Source of the DNA: Actinomycetota bacterium | GTDB taxonomy: Bacteria > Actinomycetota > Acidimicrobiia > Acidimicrobiales > Ilumatobacteraceae | Assembly (NCBI GenBank): GCA_027730505.1 | Contig: JAQCGT010000007.1 | Location: 1-46,892 of the forward strand | Reading direction: 5' to 3' | Length of the DNA stretch: 46,892 nucleotides | Part shown: positions 7,418-42,332 of the stretch, in pieces | How positions within the stretch are numbered: position 1 is the stretch's first letter | Layout: each line of letters begins with the position of its first letter | Made by a program: the position numbers and the translations under genes | Notes under the pieces: model-generated | Seen by the model: the letters and a program-made list of their open reading frames with translations, nothing else | Told to the model about the DNA's origin: nothing | Databases searched by the model: none

Positions 7418-7436
7418 GAGACCCCTGGGTGTTGAC

Positions 7437-10135: not shown

Positions 10136-10138
10136 GAC

Positions 10139-24010: not shown

Positions 24011-24011
24011 G

Positions 24012-24317
24012 TCAGCCCCTCAGTTCCGCGAGATCATCGACGGTAGCGCCGGGTCGGTTCCGCAGGATCGACACGATGATGCCGAGGCCGACCACCACTT
24101 CGGCGGCCGCCACCACCATCACGAAGAACACCGCCGTCTGACCGTCGATATCGGTGAACGCACGTGCGAAGGCCACGAACGACAGGTTCACGGCGTTCAG
24201 CATCAGCTCGATACACATGAACATCACCAACGGATTGCGACGCACCATCAGCCCAACCGCACCGATGCCGAACAGCACGGCGGCGAGCACCAAGTACCAG
24301 GTGGTGGTCGGAGTCAT
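24012..24317 (-). CDS. nuoK: NADH-quinone oxidoreductase subunit K, nuo-1 copy
   Basis: A 101-residue three-helix NuoK/ND4L subunit with [20 protein letters not shown] and the conserved membrane glutamates. It overlaps nuoJ by four bases (ATGA). Confidence 0.95.
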
Positions 24318-26735: not shown

Positions 26736-29050
26736 ACCCTCTCAATCCGGATGTCGGTAACCGCTCCACCGCCGACGAGCAGACGGGGATCTTCACTGTT
26801 CTGGCCAATAGGGATCCACACCGTTCCCCGGTCAAGCCGCTCGTCGGGGCACACCCCAAGCACGATGGATCCTCGATCGGTGCTCAGCCTGACCTCATCA
26901 GCGGCCACCACGCCGAGTTGTTCCATGTCGAGCGGATGCATGCTCACACCACCGGGACCGATCAGGGCGGCGATCGAAGCCGAAGAACGAGTGGACACGG
27001 CGCCGTCGTAGAGAACTCGCGACAGCACCAGTCTCATGTCGTACCCATTCGGTGCACTCGTCCCCACGCTCACCGGCTGGCCGGGGGGAACCGAGCCCTG
27101 CCAGATTGACCCCGCAACAGCGCCGGCACCGGCCAGGCGGGCCGTGATGTCATCGACCGACGAAACGCCGAGATCATGACCGAGGGCCGACGCGAGTTCG
27201 ACCGCCACCATCCAGTCGGGCCGAGCCGTGCCGTGCACCGTCACCTTCTGCGTCACCGTCGACACTCGGCCTTCGATGTTCGTGGTGGTGCCCGACTTCT
27301 CAGCCATCACCGCAGCTGGGAGCACGACGTCGGCGAATTCAGTGCTCGACGCCGACAGGTGGCCATCGAGCGAGATCACCCTCTTGGCCCCGGCCAGACC
27401 ACGATGGGCGAGGTCAGCATCGGGGAGGTCAGCCAGCGGATCGGCACCGACGAGCACGAGCACCTCGATCTCACCTTGCGCTGCTGCTGCCAGAATCGAC
27501 CGGGCGTCTGCGTCGTCTGTCTTCGGACGCAGGCCGGCCATGAGCGCACCGACCACGTTGCCGCGCCGCAGCGCCGGGAGCACCGTCGCTGTCGGAACCG
27601 CAGCCGTGAGCGCCTGCACCGACGCCATCACCTGATCCGCAGACTCGGCAAGATTCATCCGTCCGGCAACAATGACCACCGGTCCGGACGCCAACTGTGC
27701 CGCCACCTCTGGGTCAGCGAGCGTCGCTGCGACCGTTGCCGACGTCGCACCAACCGGAGTGCGGATGGAGCGCCATGCGTGCTTGGTGAGCCCCGAACCA
27801 GTCGGCGAGAACTCGATGATCCGCGTGTTGCCCTCAACCGCCGCATGGCGCAGCCGAAGGTGCAGGATCGGCATCTCCTCTTTAAGGTCGGGTGCGACGA
27901 GCACAACCGTTGCCGCTGATGCCGCATCACGGATCGTCGCTCGCGGCATTCCGAGAATGCCCGCTGGGAGGCCGTCGTCGAGTTGGGCATCACGCCGCTC
28001 AACGCCGATGGCATCGGCGAGCGAAGCCCACGCCCACGCATCCTCGTTCGTTCCCCGAGCGCCGCCGAGCACCGCAACCGATTCCGCACCAGCACTCGCG
28101 AGCGCAGCGGAGATGAGGTCAGCGGTGATCGCCATCGCCCCGGACCAACTCGTCGGCTCCAGACGATCCGGAGCGGTGCGGATGAGCGGATCACCCACCC
28201 GGACATCAGCGTGCACCGACTCGAAGTTGAACCGACCTCGGTCACACAGCCAGCCCCAATTGACATCGTCATCATCGACGCCCTGGAATCGCAGCACACG
28301 GTCACGGCTCGAATGCACCGAGATGCGACACCCGACCGAGCACGAGGTGCACGTGCTATCGACCTGTTCGAGGTCCCATGGGCGCGCCTTGAACCGGTAC
28401 GGCGTTGCGGTGAGCGCACCCACCGGGCAGATCTGCACGGTGTTGCCGGAGAAGTGTGACGAGAACGGCTCGTCGGGATAGGTCATCACCTGGGTGGCGT
28501 TGCCGCGCTCGACGAAGTGGATGAGCGCGTCACCGGCCACCTCATCGGCGAAGCGGGTGCAGCGGTCGCACAGAATGCAGCGCTCACGGTCGAGTTTCAC
28601 CAGCGGAGAGATGTCGATCGGCTTCTCGTAGTGGCGCTTCTCCTCCACATAGCGACTCTCGCCCGGACCGTGGCTGAACGCCTGATCCTGCAACGGGCAC
28701 TCGCCACCTTTGTCACAGACCGGACAGTCGAGCGGATGATTCGCCAACAGCAGTTCGAGAATTCCCTCCTGGGCACGCTTGGTCGTCTCGGACTCGGTGT
28801 CGACGACCATGCCCGGTGCCACGGGAACCATGCACGACGGTTGAAGCATCGGGCCACGGCCTGTGTCGATCTCGACGAGGCACTGGCGGCACATGCCGAC
28901 CGGTGCCATCCGGGGGTGATAGCAGAACCTGGGAATGTGCTCGCCGGCACGATCGGTGGCGGCGATGACCATCTCGCCCTTCTTGGCAGCGATGGCCTTG
29001 CCGTTGACGGTGATCTCGACGGTGTCGACGTTCTCGCTGATATCGGTCAC
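26732..29050 (-). CDS. nuoG: NADH-quinone oxidoreductase subunit G
   Basis: A 772-residue iron-sulfur subunit of the NADH-input module. Ligands seen: [2Fe-2S] N1b C43, C54, C57, C73; N5 H105, C109, C112, C118; N4 C158, C161, C164, C208; and the optional N7 site C234, C237, C241, C269. The rest is a degenerate molybdopterin-oxidoreductase-like domain with no sign of a cofactor-ligating residue. GTG start in a GTGA overlap with nuoF. It is the only nuoG in the window; the nuo-2 operon has none. Confidence 0.97.
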   Translation of the reverse strand: MTDISENVDTVEITVNGKAIAAKKGEMVIAATDRAGEHIPRFCYHPRMAPVGMCRQCLVEIDTGRGPMLQPSCMVPVAPGMVVDTESETTKRAQEGILELLLANHPLDCPVCDKGGECPLQDQAFSHGPGESRYVEEKRHYEKPIDISPLVKLDRERCILCDRCTRFADEVAGDALIHFVERGNATQVMTYPDEPFSSHFSGNTVQICPVGALTATPYRFKARPWDLEQVDSTCTSCSVGCRISVHSSRDRVLRFQGVDDDDVNWGWLCDRGRFNFESVHADVRVGDPLIRTAPDRLEPTSWSGAMAITADLISAALASAGAESVAVLGGARGTNEDAWAWASLADAIGVERRDAQLDDGLPAGILGMPRATIRDAASAATVVLVAPDLKEEMPILHLRLRHAAVEGNTRIIEFSPTGSGLTKHAWRSIRTPVGATSATVAATLADPEVAAQLASGPVVIVAGRMNLAESADQVMASVQALTAAVPTATVLPALRRGNVVGALMAGLRPKTDDADARSILAAAAQGEIEVLVLVGADPLADLPDADLAHRGLAGAKRVISLDGHLSASSTEFADVVLPAAVMAEKSGTTTNIEGRVSTVTQKVTVHGTARPDWMVAVELASALGHDLGVSSVDDITARLAGAGAVAGSIWQGSVPPGQPVSVGTSAPNGYDMRLVLSRVLYDGAVSTRSSASIAALIGPGGVSMHPLDMEQLGVVAADEVRLSTDRGSIVLGVCPDERLDRGTVWIPIGQNSEDPRLLVGGGAVTDIRIERV

Positions 29051-30453
29051 TGTGCACTCCCCACTGCAGTCACGGGGATCCGTGTACGCACTCGAGCGGG
29101 AGCCACCCGCTCAGCGAACTCGGACGGGAACAGGGTGATCGCCGAATGCACCGGCACATAGGCCGAAGGACCGACGAAGCAGATCGTGGTCATGCGATAC
29201 GGGAACGGTGTCGCCTCGAGGCCCAACTCGGCGCTGGCCGCGTGAGGCATCGATCCGGGGCAGATCGAGCCGCCGACCTCAAGGAGCAGATCGAGATCCT
29301 CGGTAGTGCCTTGCCCCTCAACCACGCGCTCGAGAATTCGCATCAACCATGTTCCGCCCTCACGGCACGGCACACACTTGCCGCATGACTCGTGAGCGTA
29401 GAAGCGGGTCAGGGTGAGCGCTGCAGCAGGGATGTCGGTGGTCGAGTCCATCACCATGATCGCTCCGGAACCGAGCATCGAGCCGGCCGCTCCGACGAGT
29501 CGGCCCTCGAACGGAAGGTCGAGTTGGTCGGGCAGGAACCACGGAGCCGAGCCACCACCGGGCACGAAGGCCTTCAGTTCATTGTCATCGCGGATGCCCT
29601 GGCAGAACTCCTCGCCGTAGAGCAGATCACGGAATGTGGTGGTGCCATTGACGATCTCATACACGCCGGGCCGCTTCACGTGGCCCGACACCGCCACCAT
29701 GCGTGTGCCGGGGGACGACTCGGTGCCGATCGCCGTGTACGCAGCAGCGCCATTCGTGGCGATCCACGGCAGGTTGGACAGTGTCTCGACGTTGTTGACG
29801 ATGGTCGGCTTGCCGTAGAGCCCGATCGCCGCCGGGAAGTAGGGCGGCTTGAGCCGAGGCATACCGCGATTGCCCTCGAGCGATTCGATGAGCGCCGTCT
29901 CTTCGCCAACCACATATGCGCCCGCACCCCAGTGCAGGACGATGTCAACGCTGAAGTCGCTCCCGAGGATGTTCTTGCCGATGTATCCGGCTGCATACGC
30001 ATCGTTGAGGGCAGTGGCCATCCGCTCTTGCGCCAGTGCCATCTCGCCACGGATGTAGAGGAAGCAGCGCGAGAGCCCAGCTGCGTAGCACGCGATGAGG
30101 CATCCCTCGATCAGTTGGTGCGGGTCGCGCTCCATCAGCAGGCGATCCTTGTACGTGCCCGGTTCGGACTCGTCGCCGTTCACGACCAAGTAGCGCGGGA
30201 ACACACCCTCGGGCGTGAGACCCCATTTGACCCCGGCGGGGAATCCCGCTCCACCGCGCCCCAACAGCGTCGAGGAGCGAACTTCCTCGTGCACCTCGGC
30301 CGCCGGACGGGCGATCGCGGCTCGAAGACCCGCATATCCACCGGTGGCGAGGTAGCGCTCGAGGGTGAACGAGTCCTCGAACTCGAAACGGGAGGTGACG
30401 ATTCGGGGACGGTCCCCCGCTACGAATCCGGGTGCCCACGAGTAACTGGTCAT
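29047..30453 (-). CDS. nuoF: NADH-quinone oxidoreductase subunit F (NADH-binding)
   Basis: A 468-residue subunit that oxidises NADH through FMN. GRGGAGFPAGVKW (66-78) is the FMN/NADH glycine loop and GDESEPGTYKDR (93-104) binds nucleotide. Cluster N3 cysteines are C357, C360 and C363 (SCGKCVPC), with the fourth expected in TTICFVG (C425). An additional SICPG cysteine (C398) and about 25 extra residues separate the two, unlike the short segment in most NuoF. The start MTSYSW at 30453 overlaps nuoE as ATGA; the 11 codons upstream lie in nuoE. Confidence 0.96.
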   Translation of the reverse strand: MTSYSWAPGFVAGDRPRIVTSRFEFEDSFTLERYLATGGYAGLRAAIARPAAEVHEEVRSSTLLGRGGAGFPAGVKWGLTPEGVFPRYLVVNGDESEPGTYKDRLLMERDPHQLIEGCLIACYAAGLSRCFLYIRGEMALAQERMATALNDAYAAGYIGKNILGSDFSVDIVLHWGAGAYVVGEETALIESLEGNRGMPRLKPPYFPAAIGLYGKPTIVNNVETLSNLPWIATNGAAAYTAIGTESSPGTRMVAVSGHVKRPGVYEIVNGTTTFRDLLYGEEFCQGIRDDNELKAFVPGGGSAPWFLPDQLDLPFEGRLVGAAGSMLGSGAIMVMDSTTDIPAAALTLTRFYAHESCGKCVPCREGGTWLMRILERVVEGQGTTEDLDLLLEVGGSICPGSMPHAASAELGLEATPFPYRMTTICFVGPSAYVPVHSAITLFPSEFAERVAPARVRTRIPVTAVGSAQ

Positions 30454-31073
30454 GATCCGGCTCCCTCGACGGTCACGGGGATCCACGCCGGAGGTCCAAC
30501 GACATCGTCGGGATCGACAGCACCGACCGCACGGTCAGACGGGATGTGCTGACGAACGCGTGCCAGGGTCCCATGTGGCGGGATCTCGTCGTCGAGCTTC
30601 CCGGCTCGCAGGTCGTCAATCAGTTGCTCCACCCCCTCGGGGGTCATCTTGAACCGATAGCGGTAGTTCACCTGGAGGCACGGGGCCTCCGTACACGCCG
30701 CCTGACACTCAGCCTGATGAAGGGTGAACAAGCCGTCAGGCGTGGTGCCACCAGCATGGATGCCGAGCGAACGCTCCGCCGCGTGGAGGAGTTCCCGCGC
30801 CCCCATCAGCGCGCACGACATCGTGCCGCAGATGTTGATCAGATATCGCCCGGTCGGTTCGAAGCGGAACATCTCGTAGAACGAGCCGGTACCGAGTACC
30901 TCGGCCGGGGTCACGCCGACAAGTTCGGCGATCTGCCGCATCGCCTCATCGGTCACATACCCGTTTTGTTCCTGTGCGAGGTGCAACAGCGGGATCAGCG
31001 CAGACTTCGGCCGGGGATAGCGGGCGATGATCTCATGGGCGGTCGTCAGGTTGGCGTCGTTGAAGCGTGCCAT
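30450..31073 (-). CDS. nuoE: NADH-quinone oxidoreductase subunit E
   Basis: A 207-residue thioredoxin-like [2Fe-2S] subunit (cluster N1a) that works with NuoF. The ligand pattern CGTMSC then CQAAC (Cx4C...Cx3C) is intact. It has an extra C-terminal tail of about 45 residues rich in Asp, Pro and Val after the usual domain end. ATG at 31073, one base after the nuoD stop. Confidence 0.96.
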   Translation of the reverse strand: MARFNDANLTTAHEIIARYPRPKSALIPLLHLAQEQNGYVTDEAMRQIAELVGVTPAEVLGTGSFYEMFRFEPTGRYLINICGTMSCALMGARELLHAAERSLGIHAGGTTPDGLFTLHQAECQAACTEAPCLQVNYRYRFKMTPEGVEQLIDDLRAGKLDDEIPPHGTLARVRQHIPSDRAVGAVDPDDVVGPPAWIPVTVEGAGS

Positions 31074-31074
31074 A

Positions 31075-32394
31075 TCAGCGGTCCACCTCTCCGAGCACCG
31101 GGTCGACAGATGAGATGACGGCGACCGCATCGGCGACGAGGCCACCGCGCATCATGTGGGGAAGACATTGGATGTTCACGAATGACGGGGCCCGAACGTG
31201 CATGCGGTACGGCGTCGGTGAGCCATCGCTCGCTATGTAGCAACCGATCTCGCCTCGCGGACTCTCAATGGCTACGTAGACCTCGCCCTCAGGGACCTTG
31301 AATCCTTCGGTGAAGATCTTGAAGTGGTGGATCAACGCTTCCATCGACTCGTCGATTCGCGCCCGCGGCGGAGGCGTCACCTTCTTGTCCTGGATGCGAT
31401 AGTCACCCTCGGGCATCCGGTCGAGTATCTGGCGAACGATCCGCATCGACTCGCGAATCTCGGCGAGTCGGATTGCGTAGCGATCGAATGCATCGCCGTA
31501 GGTGCCGACCACCACATCGAACTCGACCTCGTCATAGCGCAGATATGGCTGATCACGTCGGAGGTCCCATTCGACACCGGTCGACCGCAGGATCGGGCCG
31601 GTGGCACCGAGCGCCAACGCTTCGGCTGGCGTGATCACACCCACACCCTGGAGACGTTCACGCCAGATCGGCTGCCCGGTCATCAAGATGTCGTATTCCT
31701 CGAGTCGCTCAGGGAGCATGTCGAGGATCCGGAGTACGTCGTCGCGCCACCCGGCCGGAAGGTCAGCTGCCAGTCCGCCCGGGCGCACGAAGTTGTGGTT
31801 CATTCGCAGGCCGGTGACCTTCTGGAAGAAGCGCAGTACCTCCTCGCGTTCTCGCCAGCCGTAGATCATCATCGACACGGCGCCGAGGTCCATGCCGTTG
31901 GTCGCCATGAACAGCAGGTGGCTGCTCATCCGGTTGAGCTCCGAGAGCAGCATCCGCATCCATTGCGCACGCTCGGGGATGTCACCGTCGATGCCGAGGA
32001 GTTTCTCGGTGGCCATTGAGAAGACAAGTTCGTTGTTCAACGGGCTCGCATAATCCATGCGGGTCACGTTGGTACCGCCCTGCATGAAGGTGAGCTGCTC
32101 CCCGGTCTTCTCCATGCCGGTGTGCAGGTAGCCGATGATCGGCTTGCAGCGCAGCACCGTCTCGCCCTGGAGCTCGAGCATCAGCCGCAACACACCATGG
32201 GTCGAGGGGTGCGAGGGTCCCATGTTGATGACCATCGTCTGGTCCTCATCGGGATCCTCGGGAAGATCTCCGAGTTTCGCGGCCTCAGCCTCAGACAGGC
32301 GCAACACGGCGCCGACCTCGCGCATGACCTCGCGGGCGGTGAGTTCGGAACGCGGGCGGAGTTCCTGCGCGCCCTCGTCGGCGATCATGGTCAC
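31075..32394 (-). CDS. nuoD: NADH-quinone oxidoreductase subunit D, nuo-1 copy (HTG type)
   Basis: A 439-residue NuoD with NMGPSHPSTHGVLRL in the quinone pocket and the C-terminal DPVLGEVDR. GYLHTGMEK places Thr92 where the nuo-2 NuoD and mitochondrial NDUFS2 have the methylatable arginine; Thr is the form I know from Thermus and mycobacterial enzymes. GTG at 32394 is chosen because an AAGGGGG ribosome site lies 8 bases upstream on the minus strand and the start overlaps the nuoC stop (GTGA); ATG at 32388 is the alternative. The N-terminus is about 40 residues longer than in nuo-2. Confidence 0.96.
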   Translation of the reverse strand: MTMIADEGAQELRPRSELTAREVMREVGAVLRLSEAEAAKLGDLPEDPDEDQTMVINMGPSHPSTHGVLRLMLELQGETVLRCKPIIGYLHTGMEKTGEQLTFMQGGTNVTRMDYASPLNNELVFSMATEKLLGIDGDIPERAQWMRMLLSELNRMSSHLLFMATNGMDLGAVSMMIYGWREREEVLRFFQKVTGLRMNHNFVRPGGLAADLPAGWRDDVLRILDMLPERLEEYDILMTGQPIWRERLQGVGVITPAEALALGATGPILRSTGVEWDLRRDQPYLRYDEVEFDVVVGTYGDAFDRYAIRLAEIRESMRIVRQILDRMPEGDYRIQDKKVTPPPRARIDESMEALIHHFKIFTEGFKVPEGEVYVAIESPRGEIGCYIASDGSPTPYRMHVRAPSFVNIQCLPHMMRGGLVADAVAVISSVDPVLGEVDR

Positions 32395-32894
32395 GTCGGC
32401 GCCCCCTTGAACTGGACAGGGATCGAACCCACCTCGTAGTCCTTGCGGAGCGGATGGCCGATCCAATCCTCAGGCATCAGGATGCGAGATGGATCCGGGT
32501 GATCGGAGAACGAGATTCCGAACATGTCGAACACTTCGCGTTCCATCGCCTCGGTTCCCGGATGAAGGTCAAACAGGCTTGGAAGAACGGCGTCTGTTTC
32601 GGAGACTTGAACCCGTGCTCTGATTCGGCGGCGCTGACCGATGTCGAGCAAATTGACCACCACCTCGAAACGCTCCGGTTCCACCCCGGCGGGCAGCGAA
32701 CGGTCCATGTAGTCGAGATAGTCGACAGCGGTGAGGTCAACACACATGGCGAAACCCTCATCAACAAGGACGCGCATGACCTCGAGGTATCGGTCCCGAC
32801 CCAGATGGATCACGACCTGTCCACGGCTGTCGGTCACCGGACAGCCGTGCATGGTCGCTGGGGCGCTCTCGTCTTCGTGGGGGGTATCGGTCAT
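32391..32894 (-). CDS. nuoC: NADH-quinone oxidoreductase subunit C, nuo-1 copy
   Basis: A 167-residue NuoC subunit. EAMEREVFDMFGISFSDHPD and LRKDYEVG are the family core. It lacks the acidic insert of the nuo-2 NuoC. ATG start three bases after the nuoB stop codon region, GTGA junction with nuoD. Confidence 0.95.
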   Translation of the reverse strand: MTDTPHEDESAPATMHGCPVTDSRGQVVIHLGRDRYLEVMRVLVDEGFAMCVDLTAVDYLDYMDRSLPAGVEPERFEVVVNLLDIGQRRRIRARVQVSETDAVLPSLFDLHPGTEAMEREVFDMFGISFSDHPDPSRILMPEDWIGHPLRKDYEVGSIPVQFKGAPT

Positions 32895-32896
32895 GT

Positions 32897-33475
32897 TCAG
32901 CGTGTCCCGAGAAGGACCGGGACGCTCGAGGCGGGTATCTCAGTCACATGGATACCGGCACCGGCGCCGGATTCAGAGCGGCGGCGCATGATCTCGCCCT
33001 GCTCGATCTTGGTGTGGAGGGTCTCGATCGCATGGATCAGTGTCTCAGGGCTTGGGGGGCAACCGGGTGCATAGACATCGACCGGGACGATCTGATCCAC
33101 GCCCTGCACAATCGCGTAGTTGTTGAACATCCCTCCGCTCGATGCGCACACGCCCATCGATATCACCCACTTGGGCTCCATCATCTGGTCGTACACCTGC
33201 CGCAGCACCGGCGCCATCTTCTGGCTGACTCGCCCGGCGACGATCATGATGTCGGCCTGGCGTGGCGAGGCACGGAACACCTCCATGCCGAAGCGGGCGA
33301 TGTCGTAGTGCGCGGCACCAGACGCCATCATCTCGATGGCGCAGCACGCCAAGCCGAATGTTGCCGGCCACGACGAGCGTGAGCGAGACCAGTTGACAAG
33401 ATCCTCGAGTCGACCGGTGATGACGTTGTGCGACAGGCCGCCGAGGCCGTCGTCGATGACGTCGGACAGGCCCAT
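32897..33475 (-). CDS. nuoB: NADH-quinone oxidoreductase subunit B, nuo-1 copy
   Basis: A 192-residue NuoB binding cluster N2 through C44-C45, C110 and C139. The start [10 protein letters not shown] at 33475 is one base after the nuoA stop; upstream codons in the open frame belong to nuoA. C-terminal residues after the domain are a short variable tail. Confidence 0.96.
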
Positions 33476-33476
33476 A

Positions 33477-33953
33477 TCAGGCCGCTTCCGTCTCAGAGGG
33501 AAGTCGACCCTCGAGTCCAACGCGACGAATCGTCGAAGACGACGACCGCTCAGGTGACACCATGGCCGCATCAGTTGTCAGGTCGCGGTATCGCTGAGTC
33601 GGACCCCAGTCGAGACCGCCACGCGCCACCTCGTAGACGAAGGTCAAGAAGAACACGGCCGAAAAGCCGATGATCGCCCACAGTCCGTAGACCCCAAGGG
33701 TTGAGCGCTCGACTGCATACGGGTACAAGAAGATGATCTCGATGTCGAACATGATGAACAGCATGGCCACCACGTAGAAACTCACCGGGAAGCGCTCGGG
33801 AGGCTCTCGACTCGGGATGATGCCGCACTCGTATGGGGCGTCCTTGGCCACCGAGGGTCGACGAGGTGCAAGCAGTTTCGAGGCGACAAGACTCAACGCT
33901 CCGAAGAGAAGCGCCAGAATCATCAGGACGACGATCGGGAGATACTGCGCCAT
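33477..33953 (-). CDS. nuoA: NADH-quinone oxidoreductase subunit A, nuo-1 copy, with C-terminal extension
   Basis: A NuoA/ND3 subunit with three helices; [10 protein letters not shown] carries the conserved loop cysteine and [12 protein letters not shown] the TM2 acids. At 158 residues it is about 35-40 longer than the family norm owing to a hydrophilic tail (Ser/Arg-rich) after TM3. The tail lies directly before nuoB with no overlap. It follows the unknown 275-residue membrane protein by one base, so nuo-1 is continuous with the bc-complex genes. Confidence 0.95.
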
Positions 33954-33954
33954 C

Positions 33955-34782
33955 TCAGGCCGTCAATTCCGCCTTGCGGGCCAGATTCTCCGCAACGAAC
34001 CGATCACGTCGGTGCAGCATCCACGCCAGAGCCAAGAACACGAGCGTCGACCCAATGGTGATCATCGCTGCAGGCTCGCGCCGTGATCCAAGGTCACGAA
34101 TCATGTAGACGTACTGAGTCGAACGGCTGTTGTCGACTTCCGGGGCCGCAGGTGCGCGTCCCGGCTCGGTGCGAAGCGGCACGTAGGGTGCCACTTCCAC
34201 CACGGTGTAGTACGGCTTGTGCAAGAACGCGATCTGATCGAGCGCATCGACACCGAAGAGCTTCGGATACGCCTCGCCGCCGATCTCGAAGACGTTCGTC
34301 ACCTTGAACTCGCCGGCGGAGAATGCTTCTTCTTCCTCCAAGAAGACAGCCGCCGATGCCGCAGCCTGACCGAAGGCGGGTTCCGACTCACCAAGCACGC
34401 GCCAGCCCTCATCGGTGAACTGTTCGAACACCGCGCTCGCCGCATCAATCGGCGACTCAGAGCCGTCAAGAACGAGACGGTTCTCAAACACGCCGGCCTG
34501 GTTCAGAGCGGCTGGCTGTTGGATCACCGTTCGGCCCGGCACCTGCACCCAGGTCGGGTCTTCGCCCTTCAACCCAATGCCGTAGATCCACCAGATCGCA
34601 CCCATCAGTGCCATCCAGCCGGCCAAGCCGGTCAGCGTCACGATGAATCCCAGCCGGGCACCGATGTTCGTGCCGAGGATCAGGTAGATCGATCCCATGA
34701 AGGCCACGAGGCCGAGGATCACCGTGAGCAGACCGCGAAGCTCAGGCTCCCAGCCGATGGCCAACAACGCCGAGATCATCAC
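33955..34782 (-). CDS. Unknown membrane protein between bc complex and nuo-1
   Basis: I do not recognise this 275-residue protein. It shows two helices near the N-terminus (about 15-35 and 43-66, with WWIYGIGLKGEDPTW after them), a hydrophilic domain of about 165 residues, and a third helix at about 237-255 followed by a basic tail. There are no cysteines for metal or heme binding. The soluble part includes an acidic run (FLEEEEAF) and KLFGVDALDQIAFLHKPYY. Its start overlaps the diheme cytochrome stop (GTGATG; GTG 34782 or ATG 34779) and it ends one base before nuoA. Constant translational coupling suggests a subunit or assembly factor of one of the two complexes; this is inference. Confidence 0.9.
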   Translation of the reverse strand: MMISALLAIGWEPELRGLLTVILGLVAFMGSIYLILGTNIGARLGFIVTLTGLAGWMALMGAIWWIYGIGLKGEDPTWVQVPGRTVIQQPAALNQAGVFENRLVLDGSESPIDAASAVFEQFTDEGWRVLGESEPAFGQAAASAAVFLEEEEAFSAGEFKVTNVFEIGGEAYPKLFGVDALDQIAFLHKPYYTVVEVAPYVPLRTEPGRAPAAPEVDNSRSTQYVYMIRDLGSRREPAAMITIGSTLVFLALAWMLHRRDRFVAENLARKAELTA

Positions 34783-35840
34783 AGCCCCCTCACGTATTCA
34801 ACGATCGCTGTGACCTGCTCATCGGTGAGCATTGTCCCGAAGCCGGGCATGCGACCGCTGCCCTGACCCTGAATGCCGTACTTGGCGCCATAGTTCGATC
34901 CGTTCTTGATGAACGAGATCATGTCGTCCTCGGTCGGGAACGCGGACGCCGCCTTGCCGCCGGTCAGGTTCCAGCCGAACGCCCCCTGTCCGGTCTTGCC
35001 CGGATCACCCCAGCTCCAGCCGGGGGTATGGCACCGTGCGCAACTGTACGCGCCCGAATTCAGGTCGAGATTGAACAAGGCCTCACCGTACGACGAGTAC
35101 GTCCCGTCGTTGACGAGCTGCCATGCCCGGGTGTCGATGTCGTCTTGGATGTCGGCTGGGATGTGACCCGACGGGCATGACTGCGGATCATCTTCACCGA
35201 CACCGCAATCCTCACGCTCGACCTGGATGCTCCACAAGTAGGAGATCAAGGTGTCGATCTGCTGGGAGTTCATCGGGCCGCCACCTTCGACACCCCACGG
35301 GCTCATCGGCGAGAACGGACGTCCGTACACCAGAATGAACCGGACTTCGTCCTCGTCGAAGCGGGAGAAGATCGTGTCGAGCGCCGGCGCCTTCCAGTTG
35401 ACGGCATTGACCTCACCGGTCGTCGAGTCGGTGATGTTCCAGGCAGCTTCACCGCCACCACCGGCATAGCCACCGTGACATCCAGCGCAGTTGAATCCAC
35501 CCTCGGCGGTCGGAGCAAAGAGACGACGGCCCCACTCGACGAATATCTCCTCTTGGGCTTCGACGGCTCCTGCCTGGCGGGCAGGCTCGAAGACCCAGTA
35601 CAGCGGCAGGCCGATTACGGTCACCGCCAACAACAGCACGCCGATCAACTGCACTCGTTCGAGCCGCGAGCCCTCAAGGGTCTCGTCGTCGTAGTACTCC
35701 TTGCGATTAGGAGCCAGTTCGATCTCAGAGCCGAGTTCCTCTCGAGCCGAGCGGATGTTCAGAACGGCGTAGACGATGAATCCAGCCGTCACGAAGACAA
35801 GCAGGATCCATGCGATGGATGTGGTGGTCAATGCGATCAT
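34779..35840 (-). CDS. Membrane-bound diheme cytochrome c of the bc-type complex
   Basis: A 353-residue protein with two N-terminal helices (about 8-28 and 65-83) and two cytochrome c domains: CAGCH at 118-122 and CARCH at 267-271. Likely methionine ligands are in RPFSPMSPWG and GSGRMPGFG. A segment between the domains has two more cysteines (C212, C222) that could form a disulfide. The helices precede the hemes, unlike actinomycete QcrC where the anchor is C-terminal. It starts with a TGATG junction after the Rieske gene. It most likely takes electrons from the Rieske protein and passes them on to an oxidase or carrier outside the membrane. Confidence 0.9.
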   Translation of the reverse strand: MIALTTTSIAWILLVFVTAGFIVYAVLNIRSAREELGSEIELAPNRKEYYDDETLEGSRLERVQLIGVLLLAVTVIGLPLYWVFEPARQAGAVEAQEEIFVEWGRRLFAPTAEGGFNCAGCHGGYAGGGGEAAWNITDSTTGEVNAVNWKAPALDTIFSRFDEDEVRFILVYGRPFSPMSPWGVEGGGPMNSQQIDTLISYLWSIQVEREDCGVGEDDPQSCPSGHIPADIQDDIDTRAWQLVNDGTYSSYGEALFNLDLNSGAYSCARCHTPGWSWGDPGKTGQGAFGWNLTGGKAASAFPTEDDMISFIKNGSNYGAKYGIQGQGSGRMPGFGTMLTDEQVTAIVEYVRGL

Positions 35841-36703
35841 CAGTGGTCACTTGCTCCAACACAGTGCGGGCCCTCGGCCTCCTGACCGGTGGTGTTCACA
35901 CCGATCGGAACACCCTGGACGATGGTGCCGGTATCAACGATCACATCGCCGGCAGCGGAGAACTCGAGCGGGAAGTGGTCCATGCCACGCGGGGCCGGGC
36001 CACCTTTCTTCTCGCCGACACGGTTGTACTGCGAACCGTGACAACCGCATTCGAACCACTGGCTCGATGCGCACTGGGGAACACGGCAACCGAGGTGTGG
36101 GCACTTCTGGTACGACGCGATCAGGCCGCGGCGCATACCGGCCAGCACCGATTCCTTGTACACGCCTTCAGCCTTGGCGATGGCGTCGACCGGATACTCA
36201 GTGATCCATGCACGAGCCTCCGGGGCGTAGAAGAAGCCCTGACCCTGGCGAATGCCTGAGACGATGTCGTCGTAGCGGCCGATCGGGACCTTGCCGCCGA
36301 AACCGCCGGTCTTGGAGGGCCAGAGGAAGCCGACGAACGACGCCGCCGCGAACGCGCCGATACCAGCGCTCATCAGCGACACGGTCGCCCGATTGAAGAA
36401 CTGGCGGCGGCTCACCCCGATTGCGTCGGGATCAGCGGGCACCCACGGCTCGGGAGCGAGATCGGTCACAGGGGCCAAAGCCGTTCCGGCTCGCACCGCT
36501 GCAGCCTCCGCTTCAACGGCGGCACCCGATGAGGCCGACACCGATCCAGCTGCCTTACGAGCCGACCGATCACGGGCAAGGGTCTCGTCGCTGAGCGCAC
36601 CAGCACCGCGCACGTCATTGCGGCGAGCGAGGGTGGCGAACGCGGCACCGGCCAGAACGACCAGTGCCACGACGGCGATGAGGATGACAGCAGTTGCACT
36701 CAT
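35840..36703 (-). CDS. Rieske iron-sulfur protein of the bc-type complex
   Basis: A 287-residue Rieske protein. The [2Fe-2S] cluster is bound by C201/H203 and C219/H222 (CPHLGC and CGCHGS) with C206-C221 as the structural disulfide. A first helix spans about 4-24, then about 75 Ala/Glu-rich residues, then SRRQFFNRATV at 98-108, a twin-arginine motif directly before the second helix (about 109-128). Rieske proteins need Tat export because the cluster is folded in the cytoplasm. The start MSATAVILI at 36703 follows the subunit IV gene by 7 bases; GAGGT lies just upstream on the minus strand. C211 and C281 are extra cysteines. Confidence 0.93.
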   Translation of the reverse strand: MSATAVILIAVVALVVLAGAAFATLARRNDVRGAGALSDETLARDRSARKAAGSVSASSGAAVEAEAAAVRAGTALAPVTDLAPEPWVPADPDAIGVSRRQFFNRATVSLMSAGIGAFAAASFVGFLWPSKTGGFGGKVPIGRYDDIVSGIRQGQGFFYAPEARAWITEYPVDAIAKAEGVYKESVLAGMRRGLIASYQKCPHLGCRVPQCASSQWFECGCHGSQYNRVGEKKGGPAPRGMDHFPLEFSAAGDVIVDTGTIVQGVPIGVNTTGQEAEGPHCVGASDH

Positions 36704-36710
36704 GACGACC

Positions 36711-37481
36711 TCACAACTCGAAGAACAGTCCGTCACGCCACGGCAGCGTGAAGTTGAAGCCCGGTCCACGGAAGAACGAGCCGATCATGACGAGCACCGC
36801 CCAGAACATGAGGTGCACAGTCATGAGGGAGGTCGCAAACTTGCGATCCTCGGGCTTGTTCGACGGGTTCCGGTCGATGTACGGGGCGAAAATCAACACG
36901 ATGATCCCGACACCCGGAATGGTCACACCTGCGACCATCGGGTGGAACATGGTGAGCAGTTCCTGCAATCCGAGGAAGTACCACGGGGCCTTCGAGGGGT
37001 TGGGAGTCTGGTTCGGGTTCGACAACTGCAACAACGGCGCATTCACCCAGATCGAGAACAGGAACAAGAACACGAGGCAGGCAAGTGAGGCGACGAATTC
37101 GGCCGCCAGCAGGTGTGGCCAGGTGTGCACCTTGTCGACCGGAGTGGCCTTGACCTCTTGGATCGAGCCCGACTTGACCACGGTCAACAAACGCTGCGTG
37201 TGTCCACCGGGGCCAGCCCCAACCGGTACACCGCCACCAACAGGTGCGGTCGCCACGGCAGCAGCCGCCTTCTCAGCGACGGCGACACCGCCACCACCGG
37301 CTTCCCCCTCAGCACCTTTGGAACGCGCTGCTTTGGTGCGCTCGAGCAGATGAGCGGGGATACGCGAGTCGGTCTGGGCAGCACCAGCATCGGCCGCCGG
37401 CTCAGCTGCCGGTTCCTCTGCAGCTGACTTCTCACGGGCAGCCTGGGCCCGCTTGAGTAGGTGTTCTGGGATCTCAGTCAT
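36711..37481 (-). CDS. Cytochrome b subunit IV-like protein with N-terminal IPEHLLKR repeats
   Basis: A 256-residue protein whose C-terminal half (about 120-256) is the three-helix cytochrome b C-terminal domain: SKAPWYFLGLQELLTMFHP at 163-181 stands in the PEWY loop region of the Qo site, here APWY. The N-terminal 115 residues are a low-complexity cytosolic region opening with TEIPEHLLKRAQAAREK (2-18) and a second copy SRIPAHLLERTKAARSK (39-55). The same motif begins the cytochrome c at 39397. GGAGG lies 10 bases before the ATG. With the preceding cytochrome b6-like gene it makes a split cytochrome b, as in b6f and Bacillus-type complexes. Confidence 0.92.
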   Translation of the reverse strand: MTEIPEHLLKRAQAAREKSAAEEPAAEPAADAGAAQTDSRIPAHLLERTKAARSKGAEGEAGGGGVAVAEKAAAAVATAPVGGGVPVGAGPGGHTQRLLTVVKSGSIQEVKATPVDKVHTWPHLLAAEFVASLACLVFLFLFSIWVNAPLLQLSNPNQTPNPSKAPWYFLGLQELLTMFHPMVAGVTIPGVGIIVLIFAPYIDRNPSNKPEDRKFATSLMTVHLMFWAVLVMIGSFFRGPGFNFTLPWRDGLFFEL

Positions 37482-37496: not shown

Positions 37497-38282
37497 TCAG
37501 AGCGGGCCACTGATGCCGCCGTCCTTGCGGACACGCCAGAAGTGAATGGCCATGAAGATGACGATGATGAACGGGAAGAACAAGACGTGGAGCACGTACC
37601 ACCGAAGCAACGTCTCCGAACCGATCTCAGCGCCGCCGAGGAGCACGAAGCGCACTTCCTGGCCGAATACGGGTGTGTAGCCCATCATGTTCGTGCCCAC
37701 GGCAACCGCCCACATGGCCAGCTGGTCCCAGGGCAGGAGGTAGCCGGTAAACGACAGAAGCAGGGTGAGTGTCAGCAGAATCACACCGATCACCCAGTTG
37801 AACTCCCGAGGCGGCTTGTAGGCGCCGTGGTAGAAGACACGAGCCATGTGCAAGAACACCGAGAGCACCATCAGGTGAGCTCCCCATCTGTGCATGTTTC
37901 GTACCAACAACCCGAATGTGACCGACGTCTGCAGGTTGGAGATGTCATCCCAAGCGGCCGTGGCCTCTGGGCGGTAGAAGAACATCAAGAAGATGCCGGT
38001 CACCGTCAGCAGGATGAACAAGAAGAAGCTCAGCCCACCGAGACAGAGCGTGTACGACACCTTCACGGCGTGGCGCTTCACCTTGACTGGGTGCAGGTGG
38101 TAGAGCACCGAGTTCATGATGACGTACGAGCGATTTCGCGGGCTGTCGGTATAGCCCTTCCTGAAGATCGATCCCGGCCGGAAGATGCTGCTCCAGACCT
38201 GTGACCCCTGAACGGAGTCGACGGTCTGTTGCACACGCTCCTTCGCAGTGGGGCGAGGGGTTTCGTCGATGATCTTTGCCAT
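37497..38282 (-). CDS. Cytochrome b6-like subunit of a b6f-type quinol:cytochrome c reductase
   Basis: A 261-residue four-helix cytochrome b. Heme ligand pairs are H131/H145 (MHRWGAHLMVLSVFLH, 13 residues between) and H232/H247 (14 between); the 14-residue second spacing is the b6f/Firmicutes pattern. C80 in YTLCLGG aligns with the b6 cysteine that binds the extra heme c-n in b6f and Bacillus complexes. GYLLPWDQLAMWA is the Qo-side helix. The start MAKIIDETPR at 38282 lies 5 bases after the ferredoxin stop; upstream codons in frame are ferredoxin sequence. Role: quinol oxidation and transmembrane electron transfer in the bc complex. Confidence 0.94.
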   Translation of the reverse strand: MAKIIDETPRPTAKERVQQTVDSVQGSQVWSSIFRPGSIFRKGYTDSPRNRSYVIMNSVLYHLHPVKVKRHAVKVSYTLCLGGLSFFLFILLTVTGIFLMFFYRPEATAAWDDISNLQTSVTFGLLVRNMHRWGAHLMVLSVFLHMARVFYHGAYKPPREFNWVIGVILLTLTLLLSFTGYLLPWDQLAMWAVAVGTNMMGYTPVFGQEVRFVLLGGAEIGSETLLRWYVLHVLFFPFIIVIFMAIHFWRVRKDGGISGPL

Positions 38283-38287
38283 AGGTC

Positions 38288-38701
38288 TCAGAACCTCATG
38301 CCGTAGGCGTAGCCATGGTTGTTGGTACGGGTGTGGGAATCGCCGGCAGCGGTGGCCTGACCCACCTTGCCGAGAATGATCACGCCGGTGGGGCACCGAT
38401 CGACGCACAGCGCACAGCGGGTGCAGATGTCGTCGTCGATGATGAAGACGACGTTGTCAGACGGGTCCTCACCGGGCTTCTCGGTGCCGTCGGCCTCGCT
38501 GATGGAGGTCGGCTGCACCATGTGGATGCACTTCCACGGGCAGATGTCGACGCAGCCTTCGCACATGATGCACTCGGTCTGATCGATGTGGATGAACTGC
38601 TTGGGCTTGACCGCGCGCGTCAGATAATCCGCATCGACCTCGACGAGCGTGTACTCGTCGGTGAAGGGCATCATCGGGGGGTTGGCGTCGGTACGTGCCA
38701 T
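38288..38701 (-). CDS. 2[4Fe-4S] ferredoxin in the bc-complex operon
   Basis: A 137-residue ferredoxin with two complete cluster motifs: C44, C47, C50, C54 (CIMCEGCVDIC, followed by C58) and C93, C96, C99, C103 (CTRCALCVDRC). It has about 35 extra residues in front and about 30 behind, and an acidic linker of about 35 residues between clusters. It has no helix or signal, so it is cytoplasmic or bound to a membrane complex. It sits between the unknown 160-residue membrane protein and cytochrome b6, with gaps of 3 and 5 bases, so it is co-expressed with the bc complex. Its partner is unknown: a cytoplasmic subunit of the bc complex or a donor to the NADH-module-less complex I are both possible. 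Confidence 0.92.
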   Translation of the reverse strand: MARTDANPPMMPFTDEYTLVEVDADYLTRAVKPKQFIHIDQTECIMCEGCVDICPWKCIHMVQPTSISEADGTEKPGEDPSDNVVFIIDDDICTRCALCVDRCPTGVIILGKVGQATAAGDSHTRTNNHGYAYGMRF

Positions 38702-38704
38702 GGA

Positions 38705-39187
38705 TCAGGCCTTCTTGACGAGGGGTCGTCCGTAGGAGCTGGTCTCGAGTTCGGGTGTCGTCTCCTGACCGCGCTTTTGCCACCAGAGCCAGAGGAAGAT
38801 CAACAAGCCGAAGTAGTAGGCATGGATCACGACGACGATGATGTCGCGGATCGCCTCGTACTGCATGGTGAATGGGAACCAACCACCGAAGGCCTGCGGC
38901 TTCACGATGCCGCCCGGGCCGAAGATGATCTTGGTGCGGTCCCAACCGAGGTCTTTGTCGGCGTGGTCTATCCACTGGTGCGGCACGATGCCGAATGCGA
39001 GGAACATGACGCCGAAGGAGTAGGTCGCGCCGACCATTGCCTCACCCCACGACACCGGAGTGCCGAGCGGCCGGCGGCGCCCATACGGAATGACGGCGAA
39101 CGCAAGGATGTTCGATGCGATGAACGACACGAGAAAGGCCGTGTTCATTCCCGGCCACTCAAGCACGTTCCAGTTGAAGGCGATCAT
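38705..39187 (-). CDS. Unknown small membrane protein heading the bc/nuo-1 operon
   Basis: I do not recognise this 160-residue protein. It has three likely helices (about 15-34, 50-69 and 113-136). The loop after helix 2 reads GIVPHQWIDHADKDLGWDR, with two histidines next to the membrane, and the loop before helix 3 is Gly/Phe-rich. H122 lies inside helix 3. The start MIAFNWNVLEW at 39187 is the first ATG before the first helix; the frame runs 40 codons further up into the intergenic region but with low-complexity Arg/Gly/Ser sequence. It is the first gene of the run and is followed by the ferredoxin after 3 bases. It could anchor the ferredoxin or belong to the bc complex; that is inference only. 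Confidence 0.85.
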   Translation of the reverse strand: MIAFNWNVLEWPGMNTAFLVSFIASNILAFAVIPYGRRRPLGTPVSWGEAMVGATYSFGVMFLAFGIVPHQWIDHADKDLGWDRTKIIFGPGGIVKPQAFGGWFPFTMQYEAIRDIIVVVIHAYYFGLLIFLWLWWQKRGQETTPELETSSYGRPLVKKA

Positions 39188-39396: not shown

Positions 39397-40230
39397 GTGA
39401 CCGAGATCCCCGAACACCTCCTGAAGCGCAGCCGCGAACGCCGCAGCGCTCTCGGACAGGGTGACGGCGAGGCGGCGTCGGATGCTCCCGCAGCGTCGAC
39501 CCCGGCGACCACGACCCCCGCTGCTCCTGCTGGGGCTGCTGCGCCGACCGGGCCCCAGCCCCGCGCTGCTGCCCCGGCGCTCTCCGAGCCAACACCACCC
39601 AAGCCCGATTCGTTTGTGGTCTCCCGCTACCGAGCCCGCAAGAAAGTGCCGTTCTGGGCCATGGGTGCTCTCGGCCTGCTCCCAATCTGGATGTTCATGT
39701 ACGTGCGTTCGGTGACCGCATCCGCTGAAGAGGTCGCCGGTCCACTCGGAATGGGTGCCGAGGTCTACTCGAACTGCGCCAGCTGCCACGGAGGCAACGG
39801 CGGCGGCGGTGTCGGCTACCAGTTCTCTGAGGGAGAGGTGCTCAAGACCTTCCCGCACATCGAGGATCAACTCCGCTACGTCCTCTATGGCACCGGTGCA
39901 TACAACATTGCTGGGGTTCAGATCTACGGCAACCCCGACCGTGAGGGCGGAGCGCATGTGACCGGTGCCCGAGGCGCGATGCCGGGCTTCGAGGGATCGC
40001 TCACCGACTACGAGATCCTCGCGGTCGTGTGCCACGAGCGGTATGCACTCGGTGGCGCCGACGAGGCTGGCGACTACGCCGACGAATTCGAGACCTGGTG
40101 TTCCGCTGACTCAGAGATCTTCCTCCAGCTCGAAGAGGGTGAGCACCTCGCCGACATCCACGAGATGCACGAGGGACTGCTGCCGATCGGTGACGGGCCG
40201 GCGGCCGGCTCAGCGCCCATCGCTGGCTGA
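39397..40230 (+). CDS. Membrane-anchored monoheme cytochrome c with N-terminal IPEHLLKR motif
   Basis: A 277-residue protein. Residues 1-20 read VTEIPEHLLKR then SRERRSALG, nearly the same opening as the subunit IV-like protein on the other strand. An Ala/Pro-rich linker (about 25-70), one helix at about 84-103, and a cytochrome c domain with CASCH at 127-131 and a likely ligand M195 in GAMPGFEG follow. Further cysteines (C212, C235) may form a disulfide, and the C-terminal region is acidic. The cytosolic N-terminus and outside heme domain follow from one helix. It is divergent from the bc operon (209 bases between starts) and likely carries electrons to or from that complex. Confidence 0.9.
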   Translation: MTEIPEHLLKRSRERRSALGQGDGEAASDAPAASTPATTTPAAPAGAAAPTGPQPRAAAPALSEPTPPKPDSFVVSRYRARKKVPFWAMGALGLLPIWMFMYVRSVTASAEEVAGPLGMGAEVYSNCASCHGGNGGGGVGYQFSEGEVLKTFPHIEDQLRYVLYGTGAYNIAGVQIYGNPDREGGAHVTGARGAMPGFEGSLTDYEILAVVCHERYALGGADEAGDYADEFETWCSADSEIFLQLEEGEHLADIHEMHEGLLPIGDGPAAGSAPIAG

Positions 40231-40244
40231 CGACGAGTGCACTC

Positions 40245-41348
40245 ATGGCCCACGACGCGCTTGTCGTCGGAGGTGGCCCATCGGGCTGCGCCGCTGCAAT
40301 AGCGATCGCACACTCTGGCTCGTCGGTTGCGCTCATCGATCGCGGTCGAGGCCTCGCCCACCCGTGGGCAGCGATACTGACCCACGACGCCAGGGCCGAA
40401 CTCGAAAAGATCGGCTTCTCCACCACGATCCATGAGATCGCCCAGGTGAGAGTCGGCGATGGAGAGCGTTCGATGGTCCGCTCGCTCCCACCGGGTGACC
40501 TCGGTGTCGTGAGGCGGCCCGAGTTCGACGATGCCCTCCTCGACACCGCCCGCGCCAACGGTGTCGAGGTACTCGATCACCACGATGCCCACCGTCCGGT
40601 CATCGAGCGTGGCTTCGTGCGCGGAGCCGACGTGGTCAACGATGCGGCCGAGATAACACTGCGCGCCGAATACACGGTGATCGCCGACGGCGCCAACAGC
40701 ACGTTCGGGCGGGCGCTCGGCACCCACCGCCGACGCGACCTGCCACACCTGATCACCGCGCGCGGCACATGGTCGAGTCCGCTGAGCCGGGTCGTCGAGT
40801 GCGAAGTGCTCATCGGATTGCGCCGCAGCAGCGGAGAAGACCTGCCGGGCCACGCAACGATCATCCCCGACGGCGACGGCTCAGTGACCGTAACCGTCGT
40901 GGTCCCGTCGACGGCCCGCGATGCGGCCGCAGTCAACCCGACCAATGTCCTCGAGGAAACGGCGCGCAACATCGCCGATCGCTGGGCGTTGGATCCCGAT
41001 CAACCGATCGGCGAACTCCGGTCCGCCCGACTCCCCACCGGTCGTTCGGTCGGCCCGGTCGCCGGCCCGACATTCTGTGTGGTCGGCGATGCAGCAGCCA
41101 CCGCAGATCCGCTGACCGCACTTGGACTGGGGCCGGCCTTGGTGAGCGGAAGCCTCGCCGGACGTTGTGTTGCCGAAGCGATCGCCACGGGGGCTTCAGC
41201 GCCACTACAGGCCTATCCCGACGGCCTCGACGAGATCATCCGGCGACGCAATCGTTGGGGATCTATGGCACTCAATCTGGCGGGCCGCGAGGTGGGCAAC
41301 CGAGCGCTCAGAGCCACACTGCGGCTCGCCGCCTCAGCCCGTAGGTGA
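40245..41348 (+). CDS. FAD-dependent geranylgeranyl-reductase-like oxidoreductase
   Basis: A 367-residue flavoprotein of the geranylgeranyl reductase/FAD-monooxygenase group. The N-terminal VVGGGPSGCAAA binds FAD ADP; a second flavin motif CVVGDAAATADPLTALGLG lies near 280-298. Related actinobacterial enzymes saturate isoprenoid chains, including the menaquinone tail (MenJ). The gene follows the cytochrome c by 14 bases and converges on a polyprenyl diphosphate synthase, overlapping its 3' end by 15 bases, which favours an isoprenoid or quinone substrate. The exact substrate is inferred. Confidence 0.83.
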   Translation: MAHDALVVGGGPSGCAAAIAIAHSGSSVALIDRGRGLAHPWAAILTHDARAELEKIGFSTTIHEIAQVRVGDGERSMVRSLPPGDLGVVRRPEFDDALLDTARANGVEVLDHHDAHRPVIERGFVRGADVVNDAAEITLRAEYTVIADGANSTFGRALGTHRRRDLPHLITARGTWSSPLSRVVECEVLIGLRRSSGEDLPGHATIIPDGDGSVTVTVVVPSTARDAAAVNPTNVLEETARNIADRWALDPDQPIGELRSARLPTGRSVGPVAGPTFCVVGDAAATADPLTALGLGPALVSGSLAGRCVAEAIATGASAPLQAYPDGLDEIIRRRNRWGSMALNLAGREVGNRALRATLRLAASARR

Positions 41349-42332
41349 CAACACAGTCGACAACAGCGCCGCCGGTGCTGCACGAAGCGCCTCAAGAGAG
41401 GGTGAGTCGCCGAGTGGTTCGAGCGCTGCAACCGCTCGATCGACGAAGTCGACGGCGACGGAGACGGTGCTCTCGATCCCTGGGCCCTGCCGAACGATCT
41501 CCAATGCCGCCGAGCGCTGATCCTCATCGAGCGGGCCGCCGAGCATCGAGCGCAGACGATCACCTTCGCTGCCACCCGCTGACATCGTGTGCAGAACCGG
41601 AAGGGTGTAGACGCCGACCTGCATGTCGTGGCCTGCGGGCTTGCCGAGAGCACCGTCAGTCGAGGTGAGATCGAGGACGTCGTCAACGATCTGGAACAGC
41701 ATGCCGAAGGCATCACCGAACACCGTCAGCGACTCGATGTCGGCGCGATCGAGACCGGCCACGATTCCACCGACCCGAGCAGAGGTCGCATACAGCGACG
41801 CCGTCTTGCCCCGGATCGACGAGTGGTAGCTCTCCTCAGTGCGATCTGGGTCATAGGTGAATCGCAACTCTTCGATCTGACCTTCACAGAGCCACCCGAT
41901 GGTCCGGGCCAACAACCCAGCGACCTCGGTGCCGAGACCAGCTGCGATCTCCGACGCCCGCGCCAAGAGGAAGTCTCCGGCGAGGATCGCCTGAAGATTC
42001 CCCCAACGAGCATTCACCGTCTCCACACCCCGACGCGTCGGCGACTCGTCCATCACATCGTCGTGATAGAGCGAACCAAGGTGAACCAACTCACAGGCCA
42101 CACCGCCCAGCACCACCTCGTTCGACACGCCACTCGGACCGTCAGTGCTGGCGATCGAGCCGGTGATCACCGTCAGTACCGGACGGAGCCGTTTGCCGCC
42201 GGCGACGATGAGGTGCGAGGCCAACTCGGTGAGGTGCGCATCGGAGGTCTTCACCGAAGCGAGCATCGCCTCCTCGATCCGTCCCCGGCCATCACCGAGG
42301 AGGGTCAGCAGCGGGGAGGGGGAGCCGGACAC
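41334..42332 (-). CDS. Polyprenyl diphosphate synthase (long-chain, trans)
   Basis: A 332-residue E-isoprenyl diphosphate synthase. The two aspartate-rich motifs are present: DDVMD in YHDDVMDESPTRRG and DDVLD in QIVDDVLDLT, with GGKRLRP near the N-terminus and KTASLY in the middle. Small residues before the first motif (ACELVHLGSLYHDD) fit a long product such as the hepta- to nonaprenyl tail of menaquinone. GTG start, with a TAGCCT box exactly six bases upstream. Divergent from clpC. Confidence 0.93.
   Translation of the reverse strand: MSGSPSPLLTLLGDGRGRIEEAMLASVKTSDAHLTELASHLIVAGGKRLRPVLTVITGSIASTDGPSGVSNEVVLGGVACELVHLGSLYHDDVMDESPTRRGVETVNARWGNLQAILAGDFLLARASEIAAGLGTEVAGLLARTIGWLCEGQIEELRFTYDPDRTEESYHSSIRGKTASLYATSARVGGIVAGLDRADIESLTVFGDAFGMLFQIVDDVLDLTSTDGALGKPAGHDMQVGVYTLPVLHTMSAGGSEGDRLRSMLGGPLDEDQRSAALEIVRQGPGIESTVSVAVDFVDRAVAALEPLGDSPSLEALRAAPAALLSTVLSPTG

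Follow-up and report, generated by a model that had tools for sequence, protein, structure and literature searches.

Why should an operon for a Rieske/cytochrome b complex include the gene of a small ferredoxin? This question is raised by a locus in an Ilumatobacteraceae-like metagenome-assembled genome (MAG) of the Actinomycetota (assembly GCA_027730505.1). The window, meaning the whole stretch of DNA that was analysed, comprises 46,892 nt of contig JAQCGT010000007.1. In a large part of the phylum, the genes of such a bc complex are accompanied by those of a small ferredoxin and of a partner in the membrane, which suggests that the complex may exchange electrons with the cell interior as well. 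On the reverse strand, the order is 160-aa membrane protein, ferredoxin, cytochrome b6, subunit IV, Rieske protein, cytochrome c, 275-aa membrane protein and then nuoA onwards. The following features are relevant here:

33955..34782, minus strand: 275-aa membrane protein, the final gene of the conserved bc cluster (ORF; no Pfam family)
34779..35840, minus strand: cytochrome c; two CxxCH motifs, hydrophobic segment at the N-terminus (ORF, Pfam)
35840..36703, minus strand: Rieske protein (Pfam/NCBIfam; start picked by inspection)
36711..37481, minus strand: subunit IV-like C-terminal cytochrome b with two IPxHLLxR motifs in its N-terminal tail (Pfam/NCBIfam, motif)
37497..38282, minus strand: cytochrome b6-like subunit, the heme c_n cysteine being Cys80 (Pfam/NCBIfam, alignments)
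38288..38701, minus strand: 2[4Fe-4S] ferredoxin of 137 aa (ORF, Pfam Fer4 families, alignments)
38705..39187, minus strand: 160-aa membrane protein, upstream of the ferredoxin and conserved as its partner (AF2 model with three long helices; without a Pfam family)
39397..40230, plus strand: divergent cytochrome c with IPEHLLKR at its N-terminus, as in subunit IV (start picked by inspection)
40245..41348, plus strand: geranylgeranyl-reductase/MenJ-like flavoprotein beside the operon (below both NCBIfam cut-offs)

Since the genes for b6 and subunit IV, the Rieske protein and cytochrome c lie together, the window encodes a b6-type Rieske/cytochrome b complex. No NAD(P)/FAD oxidoreductase was found by Pfam among the ten ORFs of the bc cluster. 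The ferredoxin gene is separated by 3 bases from the 160-aa ORF and by 5 bases from cytochrome b6 (start 38282), exactly as given in the preliminary description of this DNA. Beside the operon, positions 40245-42332 hold the MenJ/geranylgeranyl-reductase-like gene and a polyprenyl diphosphate synthase-like gene, the latter assigned by inspection. A full nuo cluster with EFG is located at 19003-33953 and a second one, in whose ORF translations no NuoEFG was seen, at 4323-14647; both were identified by reading the translations, and family models were run for NuoA and NuoB of the 19003-33953 cluster. The cluster at 4323-14647 may take its electrons from another donor than NADH. For a NuoEFG-less complex I locus of Caldithrix, a donor such as ferredoxin was suggested in the part of the source consulted (PMC5317091).

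The ferredoxin itself carries two C-x2-C-x2-C-x3-CP motifs and thus two complete [4Fe-4S] ligand sets in 137 aa. Its terminal extensions, pointed out earlier, are real: 43 residues stand ahead of the first cysteine and 34 past the last, they are largely conserved in alignments, and the linker between the clusters reads as acidic. In a 16-row alignment, the cluster cysteines are invariant, and so are seven residues near the C-terminus (D121, R125, G130, Y131, Y133, G134 and R136); two sequences of family f27, whose starts were assigned in this analysis, have a shorter N-terminal tail. NuoI/FwdF/RnfB-type 2[4Fe-4S] proteins have the cluster-binding motif in common with the operon ferredoxin and are among its best PDB and NCBIfam sequence matches, with scores far under the family cut-offs; an assignment as NuoI was rejected at 41.7 bits against an NCBIfam cut-off of 113.05. 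Among the matches listed, the closest named relatives come from Ilumatobacteraceae/Acidimicrobiia MAGs. The scan of genome contigs for relatives kept the best 80 loci, which were filled by close relatives, and the survey covers one phylum. On viral contigs no relative was confirmed, and plasmids gave one weak match in Variovorax, 33% identical across 58% of the query. AF2 modelled the ferredoxin poorly (pLDDT 40.4).

Whether the ferredoxin belongs to the operon can be judged from gene order in a class sample of 148 genomes and a phylum sample of 296 genomes that includes the class members. In the class, the ferredoxin was detected in 122/148 genomes (E <= 1e-10), some cytochrome b in 142/148 (E <= 1e-10) and the 160-aa protein, which evolves faster, in 95/148 (E <= 1e-3). 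Strong b6 matches (E <= 2.6e-125), here called type I, occupy 125 places in 124 genomes, and at 121 of these a ferredoxin in the same orientation lies no more than 450 bases upstream. The four exceptions are one contig edge (G121) and three clean absences (G146, G074 and G057). Among the 24 class genomes without a type I b6, 22 are also without the ferredoxin; in the other two (G113 and G166), it adjoins the 160-aa gene at contig ends. As the class genomes are related, a Fisher value for this linkage is not a probability.

Throughout the phylum sample, the ferredoxin profile matched 95/296 genomes (E <= 1e-15), one of them (G268) through a fusion only, and b6 matched 100/296 (E <= 1e-60). Outside the class, 79 type I places in 78 genomes were counted, ten paralogous places being excluded, and 71 of them have the ferredoxin directly upstream; three contig edges (G204, G401 and G193) and five clean absences (G234, G289, G299, G319 and G338) account for the others. 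Taken together, 192/204 type I places, or 192/200 assessable ones, have the ferredoxin immediately upstream in the same orientation, the remaining 12 being 4 contig edges and 8 clean absences. This gene order is far beyond chance. Many families of the phylum share the arrangement membrane protein, ferredoxin, b6, subunit IV, Rieske, cytochrome c, and the ferredoxin is retained even in family f27 genomes of about 0.6-1.1 Mb. The membership in the bc operon that the preliminary description had read from a single locus therefore extends over a wide range, and operons without the ferredoxin, which it had named as speaking against its view if they were common, are few. In one genome outside the class (G220, contamination estimate 5), a class-like (L221) and a family-typical (L222) ferredoxin operon occur side by side, and a mixed bin is possible.

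The ferredoxin might instead be the reductant of the adjoining geranylgeranyl-reductase/MenJ-like flavoprotein and serve to saturate menaquinone side chains. Ferredoxin-dependent geranylgeranyl reductases are known in archaea, and the flavoprotein gene adjoins the operon in the window and in several class loci. However, tblastn matched the flavoprotein in only one of 20 other-family loci of limited length, the class-like L221, whereas ferredoxin and cytochrome b stay together. We regard this explanation as highly improbable.

Another explanation is a general soluble 2[4Fe-4S] ferredoxin that is merely co-transcribed and serves cytoplasmic enzymes. A possible client is present, as the window genome encodes an indolepyruvate ferredoxin oxidoreductase-like gene, a ferredoxin-linked enzyme. 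Moreover, this genome has no FdxA-family match above cut-off, and of the 13 places listed as Fer4_7 matches (E <= 0.01; longer frames inspected in part), the operon ferredoxin is the sole one in an open frame below 220 aa. Absences from the operon and second gene copies elsewhere, described below, point in the same direction. Against a general soluble ferredoxin stand the very strong linkage to bc genes over many families, the lack of the gene in nearly all class genomes without type I b6, the conserved tails and the fusion of a related domain in the operon of a paralogous bc complex. It is a possible but doubtful explanation.

The eight ferredoxin-less operons are spread over five families, and all of them keep b6 and the membrane protein, which was recognized by profile in seven cases and by tblastn in G289. 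In G146, G074 and G057, the stop of the membrane protein is followed by a short gap and then by cytochrome b6, and no remnant of a ferredoxin was seen. For G074, faulty assembly could explain why the gene is missing; in its congener G133, two ferredoxin copies broke the assembly. Five class genomes (G143, G133, G147, G166 and G173) have a second, unlinked ferredoxin gene at a site common to them. The genes to its left and right are similar among these genomes and were assigned by inspection as lgt- and ABC-transporter-like on one flank and Fpg- and ABC1-like on the opposite flank. In G143, both genes are identical over 414 bases from start to stop, while their flanks are unrelated (second copy at 7491-7904 of L086). 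For the other four genomes, the copies are comparable over contig-end pieces only (fragments in L091, L092 and L095-L100), with identities of 123/123 and 123/123 in G133, 123/123 in G147, 170/174 in G166 and 129/138 in G173. Judged from the sequences, this looks like gene conversion or concerted evolution.

Because identical or near-identical copies are unlinked, the same ferredoxin can also be made apart from the operon, and such a second gene fits a mobile carrier. Together with the eight absences in five families, this indicates that the ferredoxin is not simply an obligate structural subunit. The preliminary description had expected a complex-bound subunit: operon membership and conserved extensions remain in favour of a bound protein, but an obligate structural role is weakened.

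If the ferredoxin binds to the complex, the 160-aa protein is a candidate for a partner. The upstream membrane-protein gene looks homologous at 21/21 loci tested (weakest E 0.019) in a small 21-sequence search with ORFs chosen for hydrophobic segments. The AF2 model of the 160-aa protein is fair (80.9), gave no Foldseek match at E <= 0.001 and obtained VIA-align scores usual for helical bundles; its profile found no PDB sequence match at E <= 1. A C-terminal G-Y-K/R or Y-G-R tail is present at 44/49 ferredoxin-bearing loci and at 5/7 ferredoxin-less loci scored, where one miss (L307) is a wrong-frame pick and G289, with GGRT in its tail, lies outside the scoring. This tail does not track the ferredoxin and was rejected as its dock.

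A second candidate is the motif IP(E/A)HLL(K/E)R, found twice in the tail of subunit IV (37339-37361 and 37450-37472, minus strand) and once in the divergent cytochrome c (39406-39428, plus strand). The corresponding DNA pattern has only these three matches in its own genome and none in a reversed control, and it may be a short docking motif of the bc complex. At least one strict IPxHLLxR occurs in 109/109 distinct subunit IV tails with a ferredoxin in the same locus, a sample pre-selected by a loose match to the motif. The ferredoxin-less G146 and G074 have no strict motif in the subunit IV tail, ferredoxin-less G057 has one by eye, and the motif is absent from subunit IV of the other families examined. 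As a dock for the ferredoxin, it does not clearly track the gene, since G057 keeps it, and is suggestive at most.

Weaker matches of the ferredoxin profile led to open frames of about 600-800 residues. At locus L232, a 696-aa ORF encodes a GltD-like flavoprotein (Pyr_redox_2, Fer4_20) with a C-terminal 2[4Fe-4S] domain, the closest NCBIfam model being PRK12771 (459 bits, below the cut-off of 516), and is followed directly by cytochrome b, subunit IV, Rieske and cytochrome c. All seven loci found via the ferredoxin profile (L232-L238) have the ferredoxin domain followed by cytochrome b, subunit IV and Rieske, although the L238 contig begins inside the fusion and that of L233 ends within Rieske. 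When loci were chosen by the paralogous cytochrome b alone, the fusion stood immediately ahead of cytochrome b at 16/20 class loci (a sample of those listed) and at 3/3 further loci outside the class (L280-L282). The other four class loci are without it, and L254 and L255 have a fusion operon plus another cytochrome b without a fusion. Fusion-type operons thus amount to 26 loci (L232-L238, L240-L255 and L280-L282; one cut by a contig start); the domain assignment by Pfam and NCBIfam comes from a single locus among these 26. In the class, such operons were seen in 16 genomes, and 13 of these possess a window-type b6 place as well. The HMM of type I ferredoxins scored a median of 58.8 bits on 20 fusion domains, and that of the fusion domains a median of 68.7 bits on 139 type I domains. 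Applied to the 4Fe-4S frames of the window genome, a small control with 9 scoring frames from one genome, the latter HMM ranked the operon ferredoxin best (68 bits), with two NuoI at 40 and 27. By these profile scores, the ferredoxin domains of type I and fusion operons are related.

The two kinds of operon also differ in the heme c_n cysteine of cytochrome b. When aligned to solved b6f chains, Cys80 of the window b6 falls on Cys35, the residue that bears the heme; the corresponding heme c_i is located at the Qi site of b6f according to the part of PMC9162462 consulted. In an alignment of 240 cytochrome b places, many of them from overlapping loci and with L280-L282 outside the count, this cysteine is present in 211/211 type I rows (150 distinct sequences), in 0/23 fusion-type rows (13 R, 7 Y, 3 F) and in 0/6 other rows. 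The ferredoxin-less operons L088-L090 retain it. The window complex would be of the menaquinol:cytochrome c type, with menaquinone as the probable quinone.

Operon linkage, the c_n cysteine and the fused paralogue make a cytoplasmic iron-sulfur entry or exit point plausible. To this extent the ferredoxin-quinone branch into b6 suggested in the preliminary description gains ground, while binding and flow along it stay at the level of a proposal. Its other suggestion, a ferredoxin that feeds the complex I without NuoEFG, found no link in these data. With a probability of roughly 55%, we favour the view that the ferredoxin serves a menaquinol bc complex as an electron module on the cytoplasmic side, with heme c_n/menaquinone as the most likely acceptor. 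This reading builds on the observed gene order, its conservation, the relation of the two sets of ferredoxins and the cysteine pattern. The 160-aa membrane protein would hold the ferredoxin close to heme c_n and the quinone-reducing site, perhaps helped by the n-side tails of subunit IV and of the divergent cytochrome c. Reduced ferredoxin-type donors in the cytoplasm would most likely feed it, and it would hand electrons to heme c_n and menaquinone, so that the complex could double as a ferredoxin:menaquinone oxidoreductase. The direction from ferredoxin to menaquinone is the more likely one, because heme c_n and menaquinone are natural downhill acceptors in type I. In the fusion-type complex, in which the cysteine is lost, electrons could instead travel from heme b to NAD(P) or back. 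Such a loss is not a general rule, since the anammox models, as far as the part of the source consulted goes, are reported to combine an NAD(P) oxidoreductase with a retained heme c_n (PMC12954380). Several observations count against the electron-module reading: the ferredoxin model is of low confidence, eight operons do without the ferredoxin and keep the membrane-protein gene and b6, five genomes have the second gene off the operon, L088-L090 keep the c_n cysteine, and both docking ideas fail to follow the ferredoxin clearly. In addition, b6f complexes have heme c_n and, to our knowledge, no such ferredoxin gene.

Electrons might also flow outward, with menaquinol oxidation bifurcating and the low-potential electron reducing the ferredoxin, which would supply reductant as proposed for anammox NAD(P)H. 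Fusion-type paralogues indeed place an NAD(P)H oxidoreductase beside cytochrome b, and for the complexes of Kuenenia there are a proposal and AlphaFold3 models in the consulted part of PMC12954380. Type I, however, keeps the heme c_n cysteine, and the same partial source discusses heme c_n as a higher-potential site, which would render the route partly uphill (PMC12954380). Outward flow is therefore unlikely in our view.

An assembly or cofactor-insertion factor, for instance for the Rieske cluster or heme c_n, would be no electron carrier at all. It would agree with operon linkage and with a ferredoxin that is missing in places without loss of the complex. Yet the cysteine ligands of both clusters are invariant in the 16-row alignment and a flavin/NAD(P) enzyme carries a related domain in fused form, and we consider such a role quite improbable. 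Returning to the electron module, a wider reading may be put forward tentatively: a widespread class of menaquinol bc complexes with a built-in, exchangeable ferredoxin port on the cytoplasmic face, through which one complex would accept electrons from menaquinol as well as from ferredoxin by way of heme c_n, and a sister class that would have converted this port to an NAD(P)H module and given up c_n.

Among the listed titles and abstract openings of the open-access literature searched, we found neither a description of a ferredoxin gene in the bc operons of this phylum nor a bench test of electron exchange between a bc complex and the cell interior. The nearest parallels by description are two Rieske/b complexes of Kuenenia (Kuste4569-4574 and Kustd1480-1485), which, in the part of PMC12954380 consulted, have a b6-like four-helix cytochrome b, an SUIV-like protein, a Rieske protein and an NAD(P) oxidoreductase with [4/3Fe-4S] clusters. 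The latter is a putative cytoplasmic-side module in which FeS clusters connect the b/c_n hemes with FAD, and it was proposed to serve the production of NAD(P)H (PMC12954380). By gene content, the fusion-type operons are comparable to these complexes, their cytochrome b being adjoined by an NAD(P)/FAD oxidoreductase. The window cytochrome c has two hemes, whereas those of Kuenenia are hexa- or octaheme proteins (PMC12954380). In the window operon, a free-standing ferredoxin and its membrane partner replace the NAD(P) oxidoreductase.

Within the same phylum, the actinobacterial bcc complex (QcrCAB) has a quinol:cytochrome c function. Its cytochrome b is unsplit and distant, unlike the b6 and subunit IV of the window. 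Fourteen class genomes (f18, f20 and f21) have a distant cytochrome b match only (E 1e-21 to 1e-29), likely that of a bcc, and no ferredoxin match.

Cytochrome b6f resembles the window complex in its split cytochrome b (b6 and subunit IV) and in the heme c_n (c_i) cysteine, and it differs by cytochrome f in place of the two-heme cytochrome c and by plastoquinone. For b6f, an n-side electron entry from ferredoxin has been proposed for cyclic flow, although we know of no dedicated ferredoxin subunit. The site at which ferredoxin feeds the quinone pool in b6-type complexes and the purpose of heme c_n are debated. If the ferredoxin port is real, nature would offer in it a non-photosynthetic test case of the proposed route from ferredoxin to heme c_n in cyclic electron flow. 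The complexes with ferredoxin and c_n-type b6, the lineages without the ferredoxin gene and the sister fusion complex without the c_n cysteine form a natural comparison set. Compared with the known systems, the arrangement is a conserved, apparently undescribed variant of the Rieske/b complexes rather than a categorically new system.
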